Shown: in pieces, positions 7,100 to 63,550 of the stretch
Layout of the letters: the number at the start of each line of letters is the position of its first letter
Position numbering within the stretch: position 1 is the stretch's first letter
Origin: Limihaloglobus sulfuriphilus
GTDB taxonomy: Bacteria; Planctomycetota; Phycisphaerae; Sedimentisphaerales; Sedimentisphaeraceae
Assembly: GCF_001999965.1 (NCBI RefSeq)
Contig: NZ_CP019646.1
Location: 3,596,001-3,660,000, forward strand
Length of the DNA: 64,000 nt
Reading direction: 5' to 3'
Notes under the pieces: model-generated
What the model saw: the letters and a program-made list of their open reading frames with translations, nothing else
Told to the model about the DNA's origin: nothing
The model's database searches: none
Made by a program: the position numbers and the translations under genes

Positions 7100-7410
7100 T
7101 TTCCAGGCAGGGAGCCTGCCCTGCGATTGCCGCCGCAAGAGTTCGGGCTTTAGCCTGTAAACGCTTAAAAGACAACAAGCACGCTAAAGCGTGTACTCTT
7201 GCGGTGATAAATGTATTAGAAATAATAATCCTGTTTATCCTGTAATCCTGTCAGAGGAGTTAATTAAGAATTAGGCAATAGGCAATAGGCATTAGGCAAT
7301 AGGCATTAGGCATTAGGCATAAGGCATAAGGTAGGGCAATAGGCATATTTACGGGGCGGGGGATCTCTTGTCTTGAATAGTTTGTATGCTGATGATATAA
7401 TAAGGCTCAA
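7100..7410. repeat. REP-like hairpins and ggcaataggcattagg low-complexity tract
   Basis: There is no gene in these 311 bp. GCAAGAGTTCGGGCTTTAGC (7135-7154) and GCACGCTAAAGCGTG followed by tactcttgc (~7179-7202) are REP-type hairpins related to those around the RAYT at 62.8 kb. Next comes aatcctgtttatcctgtaat (a dispersed repeat also at 15.2 and 41.0 kb). An imperfect tandem tract of ggcaatag/ggcattag units (7268-7337) follows. The promoter of the protease gene must lie near its end. Confidence 0.7.
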
Positions 7411-20100: not shown

Positions 20101-23100
20101 TGGAGATGATATTTCATACTCAGGTGGAACATTGTCGGGCTCTAATAATCTGATTGGCGACGGTTCTGGGCAAGGTGGTCTCGTAAATGGAATAAACGGA
20201 AACATTATCGGGACATCTCAATTTCCCATAAATCCCAACTTCAGGCGTCGCATTTCTTTTGGTTCTGATGGTGTTTGGGGAGAAGGCTTTGATGATCTGG
20301 GAGATTATAGACTCGCAGATGTAAGTCCTGCTATTAACGCTGGTAATAATACTTTCGCTGTAAACCCCGATGGCTCCGCCTTGTCTGAAGACCTATCGGG
20401 ATCAAATAGAATTGTTAATTCAACTGTAGATATTGGTGCCTACGAATATGTTTTAGAGGAGATGGTTTATGAAGTAAACAGCAACCTTGATGAAATCGCC
20501 ATTGACGGCAACGTAACATTTCGAGAGGCATTAACTGCCGCCAATACCAATTCGCCGTGTGGAGATGCTTCTGCAGGAAATGCCTTCTTCACAGATAGAA
20601 TAATTTTGTCTGAGGATTTTGATGATATAATTTCCCTAAGCGGAGCTCCCCTGGAAATATTTGACTCCGTAAACATTGTTGGTCGCGGACAAGATATATC
20701 GACCATAGATGCTCAGGGCAATAGCAGAGCCATTCATATATACAATCAGGCAGAGGTGAATTTATCGGGACTAAATATTATTAACGGTCAGGCTGATTTT
20801 GGAGGAGGAATACTTATCGAATCGGGCTCTCTGAATTTAACCGATTCTTTCGTTGCATCCAATAATGCTATTAGTGGCGGAGGCAACTATGCAGAAGTTG
20901 GAACAGTATCAATTAGTGACTGTAATTTTTCCAGCAACTACGCTGACTTAGGAGGCGGGATTTATATGGCTGCAGGTTCATTGCAATTGAACAACAGCAG
21001 TATAACTGGTCATTCTGGTGAATCCGGTGCAGGGGTATTTGTTGAATCAGGTACAGCCCAATTGACAGACTGTGACATTTCACATAACTCCGCAAGTTAT
21101 TCCGGCGGTGGGCTCTATGCACAATCCGGCGAAATAACACTTCGCAAAACGGATTTTCTCCGTAATTCTGCTGAATCCGGAGGCGGCGTTTATTCTGAAG
21201 CTGGAACCATTGTAACACATAACAGTTTCATACAGGGTAATACTTCCACTTTTGGAGGGGGCTTGTGTGCTGAAGGTGGATCAGCTTTTTATTATAATAC
21301 GGTATTTGCAGGCAATGAGTCTGTTGATTCTGGCGGTGCGATCTATGTCAATACAAGTCAGGTAGATTTATTCAATGTTTCTGTTGCGGGTAACTCTGCA
21401 GGAACTGACGGTGGCGGAGTTTTCATTAACACGGATGGTTCAGTTGCTCTTTATAATAGTATATTCGCCGACAATAATGCTCCAGGTGGCAAGAACATAT
21501 ACGATTTGAGTAATAACATTACTGGTGAGCACAATATTCTTTCTGATGGCTCCGGTCAGTCAGCCTTGACCAATGGCGTAAACGGCAATCTTGTTGGTAC
21601 TGCCACTGCCCCTATTGATCCGCTGTTTATGGCGATCCCATATTCTGGTGTAGATGGTATTTGGGGAACTGATGATGATGACTATGGTAATTTGCGGCTT
21701 GAACAAGGCACTCCTGCCTTTGAAGCAGGATCAGGTGCGTATGTCTTTGATAATCAGGGTAATCCACTGGTAGCGGATGCTTATGGCAATCCACGGATCA
21801 TGGGAGACACTGTCGATATTGGTGCATTTGAATATCCGCTGGAAACACCGTCCACTGTTGTCAATACCCTCGCCGATATAGTTGATTCTGAAGACGGGCA
21901 TGTATCTCTGCGGGAAGCATTGATATATCAGAAAGCTCTGGGAACAGAGATAACTTTTTTACCGGGGCTTTCAGGGACGATCGTTCTCAACGGAACCCAT
22001 CTTGTGATAGACAGTTCTGTTACAATTACGGGGCCGGACCCCGATTTACTGACGATCAGTGGTAATCAGGAGAGCCGAATATTTACGATCACAGGTACGG
22101 CGGTGACAATTACCAATTTAACTATTTCAAATGGCTATTCTGACAACGGTGGAGGAGTAGCATGTGAAAATGCCAGGCTAATGATGAAAAATTGCATTAT
22201 ACGAGAGTGTTTTGGTGATTATCGTGATGTCAAAGGGACAGGGATTAGTGCGGTTAACAGCATAGTTAATTTAACGGATTGTTGCATAACCAAGAACGGT
22301 TCACGACACAATATGTATGGGACTTTATATTGCGGTGAAGGAACTCGTTTAGAGGTTAATAGATGCTTGATAGTTCAAAATGTTGCTGCTTATGGTGCAG
22401 GACTTTTCGTCGAGAGTAATTGCGATCACGTAGAGGTTAATAACTGCCTTATTATAGGAAATTGTGCCACATCAGGAGCAGGAATGTTTACAATGGCTGG
22501 CACTTTGGTAATAAACAATTCGTCGATTAGTCGAAACAAATCAGTAAATGGAGGAGGAGGCTTGAGTGGATTTATGGGGAGTACTTACATTGTAAACAAT
22601 TCTATCATAGCCAAAAATGAATCCGATGATGACGCATACATTGATGTCTCTTTCAAAGAAGAAGATACCGTTGAAGTTAATGCCAGTTTGGTCGGTGTGG
22701 GAATTGAAGGATTAATTGATGGTGTCAGCAATATTACGGGTACGCTAAGCCAACCGGCAGATCCACTGTTTATCCGTAATCCTTCTGCTGGGCCTGATGG
22801 TGTTTGGGGCACCGAAGATGATGACCTTGGCGACTTGAGATTGCAATCCAACAGTCCAGCAAGAGATGCAGGCAGTAATGCTTTAGCTATTGATTCGGAA
22901 GGCAATCCGCTGGAATTCGATCTGGATGGCAAAACTCGAATTGTTGGGACGGCTGTAGATATGGGGGCTTATGAATTTATAACTGGAGATTTTGTCGGTA
23001 ACGACGGAGTGAATCTTCGGGATTTTGCTGTTCTGGCAAATGCATGGCAGTCGACAGTGGAAGATATCAATTTTAACGAACAATGTGATTTGCATGAGGA

Positions 23101-47099: not shown

Positions 47100-47341
47100 A
47101 CAGGATTTACAAGATGAACAAGATTAATTTTTTATTAACCATGAAGTTATTGAAGAAATTGAAGTTTTTATTATATGTATTCTTCATGTCCTTCATGCTC
47201 TTCATGGTAAATTCAAATCCTGTAAATCATGTCTATTTGATTACTTTTAGTTATTAACTTTTTAAACTGAGCAAATTCGTGAATTTGCTCTACATGGCTG
47301 CATTTGTCTGAACCAACCGCTCTATAATTCTTCACTTGTTT
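47100..47341. repeat. 242-bp direct repeat, left copy
   Basis: Nearly identical to 49728-49968. The first ~140 bp are bounded by inverted ends (ATAGACAGGATTTACA and its near complement TGTAAATCATGTCTAT), giving a MITE-like unit rich in ttcatgtccttcatgctctt phrases. The rest contains the 22-bp palindrome 47269-47290. Together with the right copy it brackets the IS110 region. Confidence 0.8.
47269..47290. repeat. 22-bp palindrome, variant B
   Basis: GAGCAAATTC + GT + GAATTTGCTC, followed by tac; it is part of the 242-bp repeat. Confidence 0.8.
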
Positions 47342-47501
47342 GGCAATCTGATATTATTGATAAACAAGTGAAGAACGGCTCTGATTGCGTTCTGTGATAT
47401 TGCCTAAATCTTAACTTTTAAATCTTCGTAGGTCGCCCTTCCAGCCCGACACAAGTCCAATTCCCCCTTCTTTAGAGGGCTGCCCGAAAGACGGGGTGTT
47501 T

Positions 47502-47583
47502 TGCACGCTAAAGCGTGTACTCATACTAAGTAGGTCAACCGTCCTCGGTTGACATTGAAATGGCAAGCGGGGACGCTTGCCCT
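47502..47583. repeat. REP-like hairpin cluster at the left IS edge
   Basis: GCACGCTAAAGCGTG followed by tactcatac, GTAGGTCAACC...GGTTGACATTG (47530-47557) and GGCAAGCGGGGACGCTTGCC (47562-47581) are consecutive hairpins. The truncated IS110 copy begins 3 bp after the last one, so a hairpin may have been the insertion target. Confidence 0.6.
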
Positions 47584-49727: not shown

Positions 49728-49968
49728 ACAGGATTTACAAGATGGACAAGATTAATTTTTTATTAACCATGAAGTTATTGAAGAAATTGAAGTTTTTATT
49801 ATATGTATTCTTCATGTCCTTCATGCTCTTCATGGTAAATTCAAATCCTGTAAATCATGTCTATTTGATTACTTTTAGTTATTAACTTTCAAATTGAGCA
49901 AATTCGTGAATTTGCTCTACATGGCTGCTTATGTCTGAACTAACCGCTCTATAATTCTTCACTTGTTT
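49728..49968. repeat. 242-bp direct repeat, right copy
   Basis: Same orientation as 47100-47341, with a few substitutions (gatggacaag for gatgaacaag; gcttatgtctg for gcatttgtctg). It contains the palindrome at 49896-49917. Followed by gaattaag low-complexity repeats (50023-50070). Confidence 0.8.
49896..49917. repeat. 22-bp palindrome, variant B
   Basis: GAGCAAATTC + GT + GAATTTGCTC, followed by tac. Confidence 0.8.
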
Positions 49969-50071
49969 AACTTATAACGATTTAGAAAAACAAGTGCCGG
50001 GTAAATCATGTCTATTGTCGTTTTCAATTCCTAATTCCTAATTCTTAATTCTTAATTCTTAATTCTTAATT

Positions 50072-56266: not shown

Positions 56267-56553
56267 ATGATTCTTTGACTAAAATATTATGTTTAGAATA
56301 ATTCCAGGTTGCTGGCCTGCCGGGGGTATTTTTTATGAATACCGGCAAACCTGATTAAAGACAACAGTATCTCTTTTTAGAGGTCTTTGTAAAGGATAAA
56401 ATACCAGCTTGAGGCTGCGTCTTAACAAGCCGGTAGGAGTTCACGCTTTAGCGTGTATTTTTTTAACAAGCTGAAGCTTGTACTCTTACGGCGGACTCTT
56501 ACTTAGCTCGTGGTCTTACTCTCGCGGGGCCGGAATTTCTGACGTGTTTATCT
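56267..56553. repeat. REP hairpins between topoVI B and ndk
   Basis: GTAGGAGTTCACGCTTTAGC (56433 on, 23 bp) and AACAAGCTGAAGCTTG followed by tactcttac (56465-56489) are the two REP hairpin types flanking the RAYT, here in opposite orientation to each other. They lie between two leftward genes. No ORF. Confidence 0.7.
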
Positions 56554-62322: not shown

Positions 62323-62778
62323 ATTATCATGCCTGTACTGTTATGCAAAAGTTTGTATCTTGACTGATTGGTGTGGCTTTCTTCTGCCTTCTAAAAGATT
62401 TACCACATTAATTTGTGCGCATTATAACCATAGCGAATGCTATTTTCAACCCATATTGCAAAATTCATACCCAAACCGTTAGTTTTTTTGTAATAGTTAA
62501 AGCTGCGTAAGAGTACAAGCCCCGTAAGAGTACAGGCTTCAGCTTGTTAAGTAAAAAAAGCACGCTAAAGCGTGAACTCCTACAGGGATAGTAAGAGTCC
62601 AAGCTGCGTAAGAGTCCAAGCTTCAGCTTGTTAAAATGCAGATAATGTATAAAATAGAAGCACGCTAAAGCGTGAACTCCTACAGGGAACTCCTACAAGG
62701 AGCTTTTACGGTGAAAGTAAGAGTACAAGCTTCAGCTTGTGTATTTATAAACAATTAAACGTTTAAACGATCATCAGG
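62323..62778. repeat. REP/BIME cluster upstream of the RAYT gene
   Basis: Several alternating copies of the two hairpin types: GTAAGAGTCCAAGC/AGCTTCAGCTTGT (62608-62634 and 62716-62740) and GCACGCTAAAGCGTG followed by aactcctac (62559-62583, 62660-62683). The 76-bp stretch 62608-62683 recurs downstream at 63422-63497 with one mismatch. Confidence 0.85.
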
Positions 62779-63378
62779 ATGTATGACTGGCGAAAAATGA
62801 CACCGCAGGAACGGGCGGAAACGCTGCGGTTGCGGAAACAGCTTATACGGCCCTGGCACAGCCCGCCGCACTGGGACAGCGGGGAGAGCCGGTACTATAT
62901 AGTTTCAGCGGCATGTTATGAGCACAAGCATATCGCGGGTGCAGTATTTTCACGGCTTGCGATGCTTGAAAAGAGCGTTCTGGAAATCTGCGAAAGCTGC
63001 TCTGAGAAGACAATCGCATGGAGCATTTTGCCCAACCATTACCATGTTCTGGTGAAGACCGAACATATTACGGAGCTGCGATATTCGCTTGGACGGATGC
63101 ACGGCAGGCTTTCGCGGCAGTGGAATTTAGAGGACAACTGTCTCGGGCGCAAGGTGTGGCACAACTGCGTAGAGCGTATTATAAGGAGTGAGAGGCATTA
63201 TTGGGCAACGGTGAATTATATTCACCATAATGCCGTAAAGCACGGGTTTGCTCAAAGGTGGGAACAATGGGTTTTCTGCAGTGCGGTACAATTTCTGAAC
63301 GAGGTTGGAAGAGAGAAGGCTAAAGAAATCTGGAAAGCGTATCCTGTCCTTGATTATGGTAAGGAGTGGGATAAATGA
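62779..63378 (+). CDS. REP-associated tyrosine transposase (RAYT, Y1_Tnp)
   Basis: A 199-residue HUH-superfamily nuclease related to IS200/IS605 TnpA. The HUH motif is HYH at 87-89 (ILPNHYHVLVKTEH), and the nucleophile tyrosine is probably Y147 (ATVNYIHHNAVKHG). RAYTs mobilise or maintain REP palindromes. Its flanks carry several REP hairpins, and a 76-bp REP pair brackets the gene, so the system is likely intact. The N-terminal MTPQERAETLRLRKQLIRPWHSPPHW is typical of RAYTs. No terminal structure of an autonomous IS was seen. Confidence 0.92.
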   Translation: MYDWRKMTPQERAETLRLRKQLIRPWHSPPHWDSGESRYYIVSAACYEHKHIAGAVFSRLAMLEKSVLEICESCSEKTIAWSILPNHYHVLVKTEHITELRYSLGRMHGRLSRQWNLEDNCLGRKVWHNCVERIIRSERHYWATVNYIHHNAVKHGFAQRWEQWVFCSAVQFLNEVGREKAKEIWKAYPVLDYGKEWDK

Positions 63379-63550
63379 TTGTAATAAGTAAGAGTCCAAG
63401 CTGCGTAAGAGTACAAGCCCCGTAAGAGTACAAGCTTCAGCTTGTTAAAATGCAGATAATGTATAAAATAGAAGCACGCTAAAGCGTGAACTCCTACGGT
63501 GAACTCCTACGGTGAACTCTTACGGGGAGCTCTTACGGGGAGCTCTTACA
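63379..63550. repeat. REP/BIME cluster downstream of the RAYT gene
   Basis: gtaagagtccaagctgcgta..., GTAAGAGTACAAGCTTCAGC (63422 on), GCACGCTAAAGCGTG followed by aactcctac (63474-63497), then three short gaactcttacgg/gagctcttacgg units. The run ends just before the ribosome site of the next gene. Confidence 0.85.

Follow-up and report, generated by a model that had tools for sequence, protein, structure and literature searches.

The two hairpins at 56433-56489 lie on opposite strands with their feet outward and form a single dimer of REP arms (REPIN), a relation absent from the sequence-only reading of this DNA. They are part of the window, i.e., the whole stretch of 64,000 nucleotides of the Limihaloglobus sulfuriphilus genome that was analysed. 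This dimer and others like it are probably facing REPINs from a small population of REPs whose enzyme is the RAYT of 62779-63378, with one enzyme serving many cores. The analysis shows the anatomy of the arms, the covariation of their stems, their co-location with RAYTs, the pattern found within single loci and the predicted fold of the RAYT; binding, cleavage at CT, mobilisation and the handling of all nine stem types by one enzyme are what we infer.

The arm at 56433-56455 (+) reads GTAGGAGT-T-CACGC-TTTA-GCGTG and the one at 56489-56467 (-) reads GTAAGAGT-A-CAAGC-TTCA-GCTTG. Both start with GTA(A/G)GAGT(T/A)CA, as the sequence-only reading had observed. The third hairpin that it mentioned, GCAAGAGTTCGGGCTTTAGCCTG, was located at 7135-7157 and has a partner with a CACGC core on the other strand (7202-7180). 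When folded as single strands, the dimers at 56433-56489 and 7133-7204 were both much more stable than shuffles, with z values of -4.4 and -4.7, respectively, on the + strand and of -2.8 and -4.0 on the - strand. A pattern combining foot and core, with up to three mismatches allowed, matches the window 21 times (4.9 expected; the maximum of 100 shuffles was 13). The window contains 12 arms, 7 of which flank the RAYT gene, and all 12 are intergenic relative to the long ORFs, the comparison with genes covering window positions. The features are collected in Table 1.

Table 1. REP arms, dimers, foot ladders and the RAYT gene in the window.
Feature	Positions	Strand	Details
Head-to-head REP dimer	7133..7204	both	CGGGC/GCCTG arm (one G.T; +, foot GCAAGAGT 7135-7142) facing a CACGC arm (-)
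Lone REP arm	47504..47522	-	CACGC; within a larger dispersed repeat (about 47123-47583)
Head-to-head REP dimer (REPIN), studied feature	56433..56489	both	spacer 11 nt
REP arm	56433..56455	+	foot GTAGGAGT, guide GGAG, spacer TT, stem CACGC, loop TTTA
REP arm	56467..56489	-	foot GTAAGAGT, guide AGAG, spacer TA, stem CAAGC, loop TTCA
Foot ladder	56483..56502	-	second foot without hairpin, 13 nt outside the first foot
REP arm	62529..62546	+	CAGGC/GCTTG, one G.T pair; dimer left of the RAYT gene
REP arm	62561..62578	-	CACGC; pairs with 62529-62546
REP arm	62613..62630	+	CAAGC; second dimer left of the RAYT gene
REP arm	62661..62678	-	CACGC; pairs with 62613-62630
REP arm	62722..62739	+	CAAGC; directly upstream of the RAYT start
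RAYT (TnpA_REP, HUH Y1 transposase)	62779..63378	+	199 aa, NHYH motif and catalytic-type tyrosine
Foot ladder	63388..63428	+	17-nt steps, without hairpins
REP arm	63427..63444	+	CAAGC; belongs to the dimer on the right side of the RAYT gene, which has the spacer of the 62613-62678 dimer
REP arm	63475..63492	-	CACGC; pairs with 63427-63444
Foot ladder	63498..63550	-	13-nt steps, without hairpins

A genome-wide pattern, AGTNCNNNCTTYAGNNNG, in which three foot bases, the loop and both stem ends are specified and the middle of the stem may vary, recovers 59 arms, against 2 with the reversed pattern. Each arm consists of a guide, mostly AGAG, followed by TN, a 5-bp stem CNNNC and a loop TT(T/C)A. 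Nine types of stem occur: CACGC (25 arms), CAAGC (12), CAGGC (7), CACAC (5), CAAAC (4), CGCAC (3), and CCCGC, CATGC and CGGGC with one arm each. The usual REP tetranucleotide is GTAG. Here the guide is AGAG in 49/59 arms and GGAG in 6/59, and AGAG is present in all nine stem types. The foot positions left unfixed by the pattern are also constant, with G at -9 and A at -7 in 53/59 arms each and G at -5 in 57/59; position -6, which like -5 is not selected by the pattern, is A in 49/59 arms and G in 8/59. Feet lacking a common motif, the outcome named in the sequence-only reading as refuting it, were looked for in the genome and were absent.

The stems vary in a compensated manner. The three free pairs are fully Watson-Crick in 51/59 arms, five arms have a single G.T and three a mismatch (5/177 and 3/177 of the free stem-pair cells, respectively). 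The single G.T pairs bridge the stem classes. The covariation score among 23 distinct arms is 0.448, reached by 0/500 shuffles, versus 0.173 in shuffled data. The "different cores" of the sequence-only reading represent compensated changes at three middle pairs. The foot, moreover, is only part of the signal: the TTYA loop, the C-G pair at either end of the stem and the T that follows the guide are equally constant. The foot alone was also considered as the unit and rejected: GTARGAGTNC followed by 16 free bases occurs at 57 places in the genome, versus 68 for the reversed pattern.

Neighbouring arms within 100 nt are arranged head-to-head in 15 cases and tail-to-tail in 5, with no head-to-tail case in the genome. 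All 15 genome dimers have mixed stems (P 0.004, for copies that are not independent). About a dozen of the 25 CACGC arms, including that at 47504 in the window, are copies in larger dispersed repeats, and one spacer recurs in the dimers at 22684, 23014, 23346 and 120766. Any P value computed as if the copies were independent is thus a rough guide only. The base preceding the stem alternates between T and A in 13/15 genome dimers (P 0.007 by re-pairing); given the non-independence of the copies and a frequency of only 13/60 dimers at homologous loci, this alternation is not pressed.

The reading frame of the RAYT gene is intact. Its product scores 25.5 bits against PF01797 (cut-off 23) and 65.9 bits (E 3.5e-18) against NCBIfam REP_Tyr_transpos, below the curated cut-off of 80; since this places it at a distance from the curated core, RAYT membership rests on fold and REP flanks. 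The best solved sequence relative is the TnpA_REP 4er8 (E 1.1e-4). An AlphaFold model built from 34 sequences (mean pLDDT 83.8) matches 4er8 with a Foldseek E of 1.3e-7, and 4er8 is also the top structural match of the predicted model (Z 14.3, rmsd 2.8, 153 aligned), the next one having Z 9.0. Among 80 aligned RAYT proteins, N87-H88-Y89-H90 and Y148 are nearly invariant (H88 80/80, H90 79/80, Y148 80/80); the residue after W is H in 45, F in 13, Y in 10 and C in 8. A single RAYT with these hairpins adjoining was found in the window genome, and the homologue search lists one strong match and one weak, unplaced match. Other Y1 transposases (L001-L004, of which L001 looks IS200-like) were considered as partners, and none has these hairpins nearby.

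A scan with one genome per species gave 346 confirmed relatives of this RAYT, of which the best 80 were kept, several of these loci coming from the same genomes. By record title, these best 80 of 346 belong to Acidobacteriota, Planctomycetota, Verrucomicrobiota, Calditrichota, KSB1 and others. Hairpins at these loci were picked on structural grounds alone (5-bp stem with a 4-base loop). The 74.7 kb lying up to 500 bp from the 80 RAYTs contain 335 hairpins with a TTYA loop, versus 23 in 134 kb of distant flank. REPs flank the RAYT at 75/80 loci, those without REP (L079, L083, L105, L120 and L121) being counted as misses. The consensus at the homologous loci is GTTY-[GA][GT]AG-T-N-C-NNN-C-TTYA. 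Among the 333 foot-bearing hairpins, the loop is TTTA in 162 and TTCA in 159 (321/333 together). Information is high at guide bases 3-4 (1.58 and 1.87 bits), at the T (1.82) and at the stem ends (1.75 and 1.57), and low in the middle of the stem (0.48-0.67); as the latter values indicate that the middle pairs are not random, a degree of preference among stems is possible. When the pattern does not constrain the stem, the middle three pairs are fully paired in 298/325 matches, and reversed flanks give 0 matches.

Guide and stem behave differently within single loci. Two or more REPs are present at 70 loci, of which 32 show more than one stem and 10 more than one guide; 27 combine several stems with one guide, and 5 several guides with one stem. 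For 768 pairs of arms at one RAYT, guide agreement is 0.888 (random 0.261) and stem agreement 0.629 (random 0.119), and 242 of the 285 pairs that differ in stem have the guide in common. At 30 loci arms agree more often in guide than in stem, at 6 less often, and at 34 equally often. The 60 distinct facing dimers at homologous RAYTs have mixed stems in 35 cases and mixed guides in 5. On a quick tree of the RAYTs, in which 38/77 inner branches are open, the guide changes 20 times (38.8 when shuffled) and the stem 42 times (49.2 when shuffled), with retention of 0.57 for the guide versus 0.25 for the stem. One locus (L149, 69% identical, two in-frame stops) was left out of this tree test. In a Verrucomicrobiaceae branch (L128, L138, L154 and L158), all counted RAYT-side REPs have GTTG and not NNAG.

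The REPtron Mb of Marinomonas sp. MWYL1, with a group 3 TnpA_REP, has the tetranucleotide GTAG, 2 nt, a 5-bp stem and the loop TTTA (PMC8266576). SELEX with this system showed that, with a CT site, only the last two guide bases, AG, are strongly selected, that loop positions 1, 2 and 4 (T12, T13, A15) are essential, and that stem positions 2-3 can be swapped, while stem mismatches harmed cleavage (PMC8266576). Window arms are built in the same manner (guide, two spacer bases, 5-bp stem, TTNA loop), and the natural variation seen in this analysis obeys the same rules: the AG of the guide, the T, the TTYA loop and base pairing are retained and the middle letters vary freely. However, the window guides are AGAG/GGAG instead of GTAG, and loop position 3, free in the REPtron Mb SELEX (PMC8266576), is a pyrimidine in 321/333 natural arms. 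The enzymes differ as well. The window RAYT has NHYH, WH and YIHHNA where group 3 (subclass 2.5) has DH[LF]H, WQ and YI[VI]ANP, and it carries N- and C-terminal extensions unlike those proteins (PMC6006769).

By analogy with REPtron Mb, the RAYT would engage folded, single-stranded arms one by one. Three features would be recognised: the guide tetranucleotide (-6 to -3), whose terminal AG would base-pair with CT at the cleavage site; the T that follows the guide; and the loop TT(T/C)A together with its closing C-G pair. Of the stem, the three pairs in the middle would be recognised as a duplex only; this would permit compensated drift, often via G.T, and one enzyme could serve many cores. In other words, the window RAYT presumably accepts any paired middle stem, reads guide and loop on the folded strand and cuts at CT. 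Since the tested Marinomonas enzyme belongs to a different subclass, this mechanism is transferred to the window RAYT by inference. The suggestion that one RAYT may accept several cores if the foot is kept is largely right, in agreement with nine stems under one guide and with a single REP-flanked RAYT; it falls short in that the foot is an incomplete signal. Taken across many phyla, the loci document which features a REP transposase needs to recognise and which it can disregard, and this natural record agrees with in-vitro selection on an enzyme of a different subclass.

Each stem class might instead once have had its own RAYT, the present enzyme serving the flanking CAAGC/CACGC arms and the rest being fossils whose guide is the same by coincidence. 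We consider this unlikely, although the RAYT-flanking arms are of CAAGC, CAGGC/GCTTG and CACGC only, and each tnpAREP has its own REP family according to the literature (PMC6006769). Two genomes of the same order also bear on it: G127 and G384 hold 33 and 16 arms, respectively, and no match to the window RAYT at E 1e-3, which means that REPs can persist without a RAYT of the window type. The other 12 of the 14 relatives lacking a RAYT match have 0-5 arms, like the reversed controls (1-8). The most similar PF01797 matches in G127 and G384 by score and frame length (L173 and L174) are not of the window RAYT's subclass; as part of the PF01797 matches was read, it is possible that their RAYT was missed or is unassembled. 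Separate enzymes do not readily account for the mixed stems in 15/15 genome dimers and 35/60 homologous dimers with guides that differ in 5/60, for the intermediate arms with one G.T that link stem classes, or for the several G127 stem classes under GTAG. Some stems could still be relics of lost RAYTs.

The foot is uniform within a genome and varies across relatives, and it can change while the stems stay. In G384, stems CAAGC and CACAC carry the foot GTAAGAGT. The foot of G127 is GTTYGTAGT, and it accompanies both of these stems plus further stems of the window genome; the several stem classes of G127 are all under GTAG, which is the guide of 28/33 arms in G127 and of none in G384 or the window genome. 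With stems of the window genome under GTAG in G127, the foot is not universal. Tentatively, guide and stem may be separate, swappable modules, the enzyme fixing one guide for the REP population of each genome. If so, a shift in enzyme preference, and with it in cleavage site, would re-guide all stem classes together while stems drift freely. The GTAG of G127 versus the guides of the window genome and G384 would be a concerted guide switch with common stems, including CAAGC and CACAC, and the GTTG guides of the Verrucomicrobiaceae branch would mark a changed cleavage dinucleotide. If guides choose the cleavage site, this site should differ in the GTTG-guided branch, and from the clade guides AGAG, GGAG, GTAG, TGAG and GTTG it can be predicted where the cleavage dinucleotide stays the same and where it changes. 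Arm numbers vary widely among RAYT-bearing genomes: the pattern finds just 7 arms in G131, 3 in G272 and 8 in G061, and 1273 in G145, 265 in G081 and 96 in G253. The pattern would miss the REPs of one locus of G272 (L051) because their stems begin with A.

The hairpins are very unlikely to be intrinsic terminators of the ordinary type, or hairpins for RNA processing, with an incidentally common foot. All window arms do lie between long ORFs, and a T run follows the + hairpin at 56442-56455 (one terminator-like site; mean of shuffles 0.5), but this run faces the + strand while both flanking genes read leftward, it is missing at other copies, and no Rfam family matches. Terminators, moreover, need no guide, TTYA loop, facing partner or transposase neighbour. 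Equally improbable is that foot and loop reflect descent only, an ancestral repeat having been copied by homologous recombination and tandem duplication with no enzyme reading it now: several copies do lie within larger mosaic repeats or 330-bp tandem units, but neutral decay does not give stems diverged with compensation next to a fixed guide, T, loop and stem ends, the same constraint is found at 75/80 RAYT loci in many phyla, and the RAYT reading frame is intact.

Part of this organization has already been described for GTAG REPs, namely a common foot with alternative stems, and heterodimers. In the GTAG REP families of Di Nocera et al. (2013), a common terminal tag is accompanied by alternative complementary stem residues, head-to-head heterodimers are common, and these are discussed as keeping the two arms from mutual pairing (PMC3733652). 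Mixed-stem dimers may likewise prevent base pairing between their two arms. Unlike those REPs, the present family has the tag NNAG followed by T and one base, 5-bp stems and a fixed TTYA loop. In E. coli, one TnpA_REP handles the y, z1 and z2 REPs, which have one foot (PMC8266576), and the window genome resembles that system in having several REP types under one foot, with 4er8 as the closest solved fold. However, the E. coli REPs are long and bulged, exact GTAG is needed and the loop is unread (PMC8266576).

The RAYT type was compared by described motifs. TnpA_REP subclass 2.8 of Quentin et al. (2018) was described from 8 proteins of Cyanobacteria with long REPs and GT[AG]G feet (PMC6006769). 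The window RAYT resembles it in its NHYH, its length of 199 aa, the Y motif YIH-N and a proline-rich N-terminus; the full motifs, compared by description, are NHYH, W[YH] and YIHYNP in subclass 2.8 and NHYH, WH and YIHHNA in the window RAYT (PMC6006769). In contrast to that subclass, the stems have 5 bp and the guides are AGAG/GGAG, with GTAG at part of the homologous loci, and the RAYT relatives extend to many phyla beyond Cyanobacteria. The family differs from described REPs in the NNAG guide plus T, the fixed TTYA on 5-bp stems, the RAYT type and the phylum spread. Literature searches, with most subscription journals lying outside them, showed no description of this family in the papers seen, and five 14-base cores had no match in the searched literature. 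The design of the family suggests why REP searches restricted to GT[AG]G feet and stems of at least 7 bp would miss it.

Several further repeats accompany the arms. Foot ladders, i.e., tandem GTAAGAG/GTAGGAG in 9-, 13- or 17-nt steps without hairpins next to true arms, occur at the positions in Table 1, at window 62507-62530 and 62591-62614, and at genome 22742-22766 and 23081-23096. The tandem-foot pattern has 11 matches in the genome versus 0 reversed. As a family-wide trait the ladders were rejected: a second foot is present at 26/333 homologous-locus arms, a weak signal because control 8-mers upstream reach 12/331. Two near-identical direct copies of one REP dimer (62591-62683 and 63405-63497), with the same 30-nt spacer, bracket the RAYT gene.

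A larger dispersed mosaic repeat (window 47123-47583 and 49751-49969; L027-L036) has matches of up to about 480 bp that are 86-98% identical; it contains several palindromes, and many of its copies carry one CACGC arm. Elsewhere (L006 1446-2250, genome 22631-23410), three tandem units of ~330 bp each contain the same REP dimer. Finally, the Y1 transposases L002, L003 and L004 are 237-260-aa open frames with terminal repeats that are GGGTGTCTGACACC-like, GGGGACAGTTACC and GGGTTAATTAAAAGGGTT, respectively; these GGGG-/GGGT-type repeats resemble the GGGGWSAS TIRs of published TIRYTs (PMC3733652).
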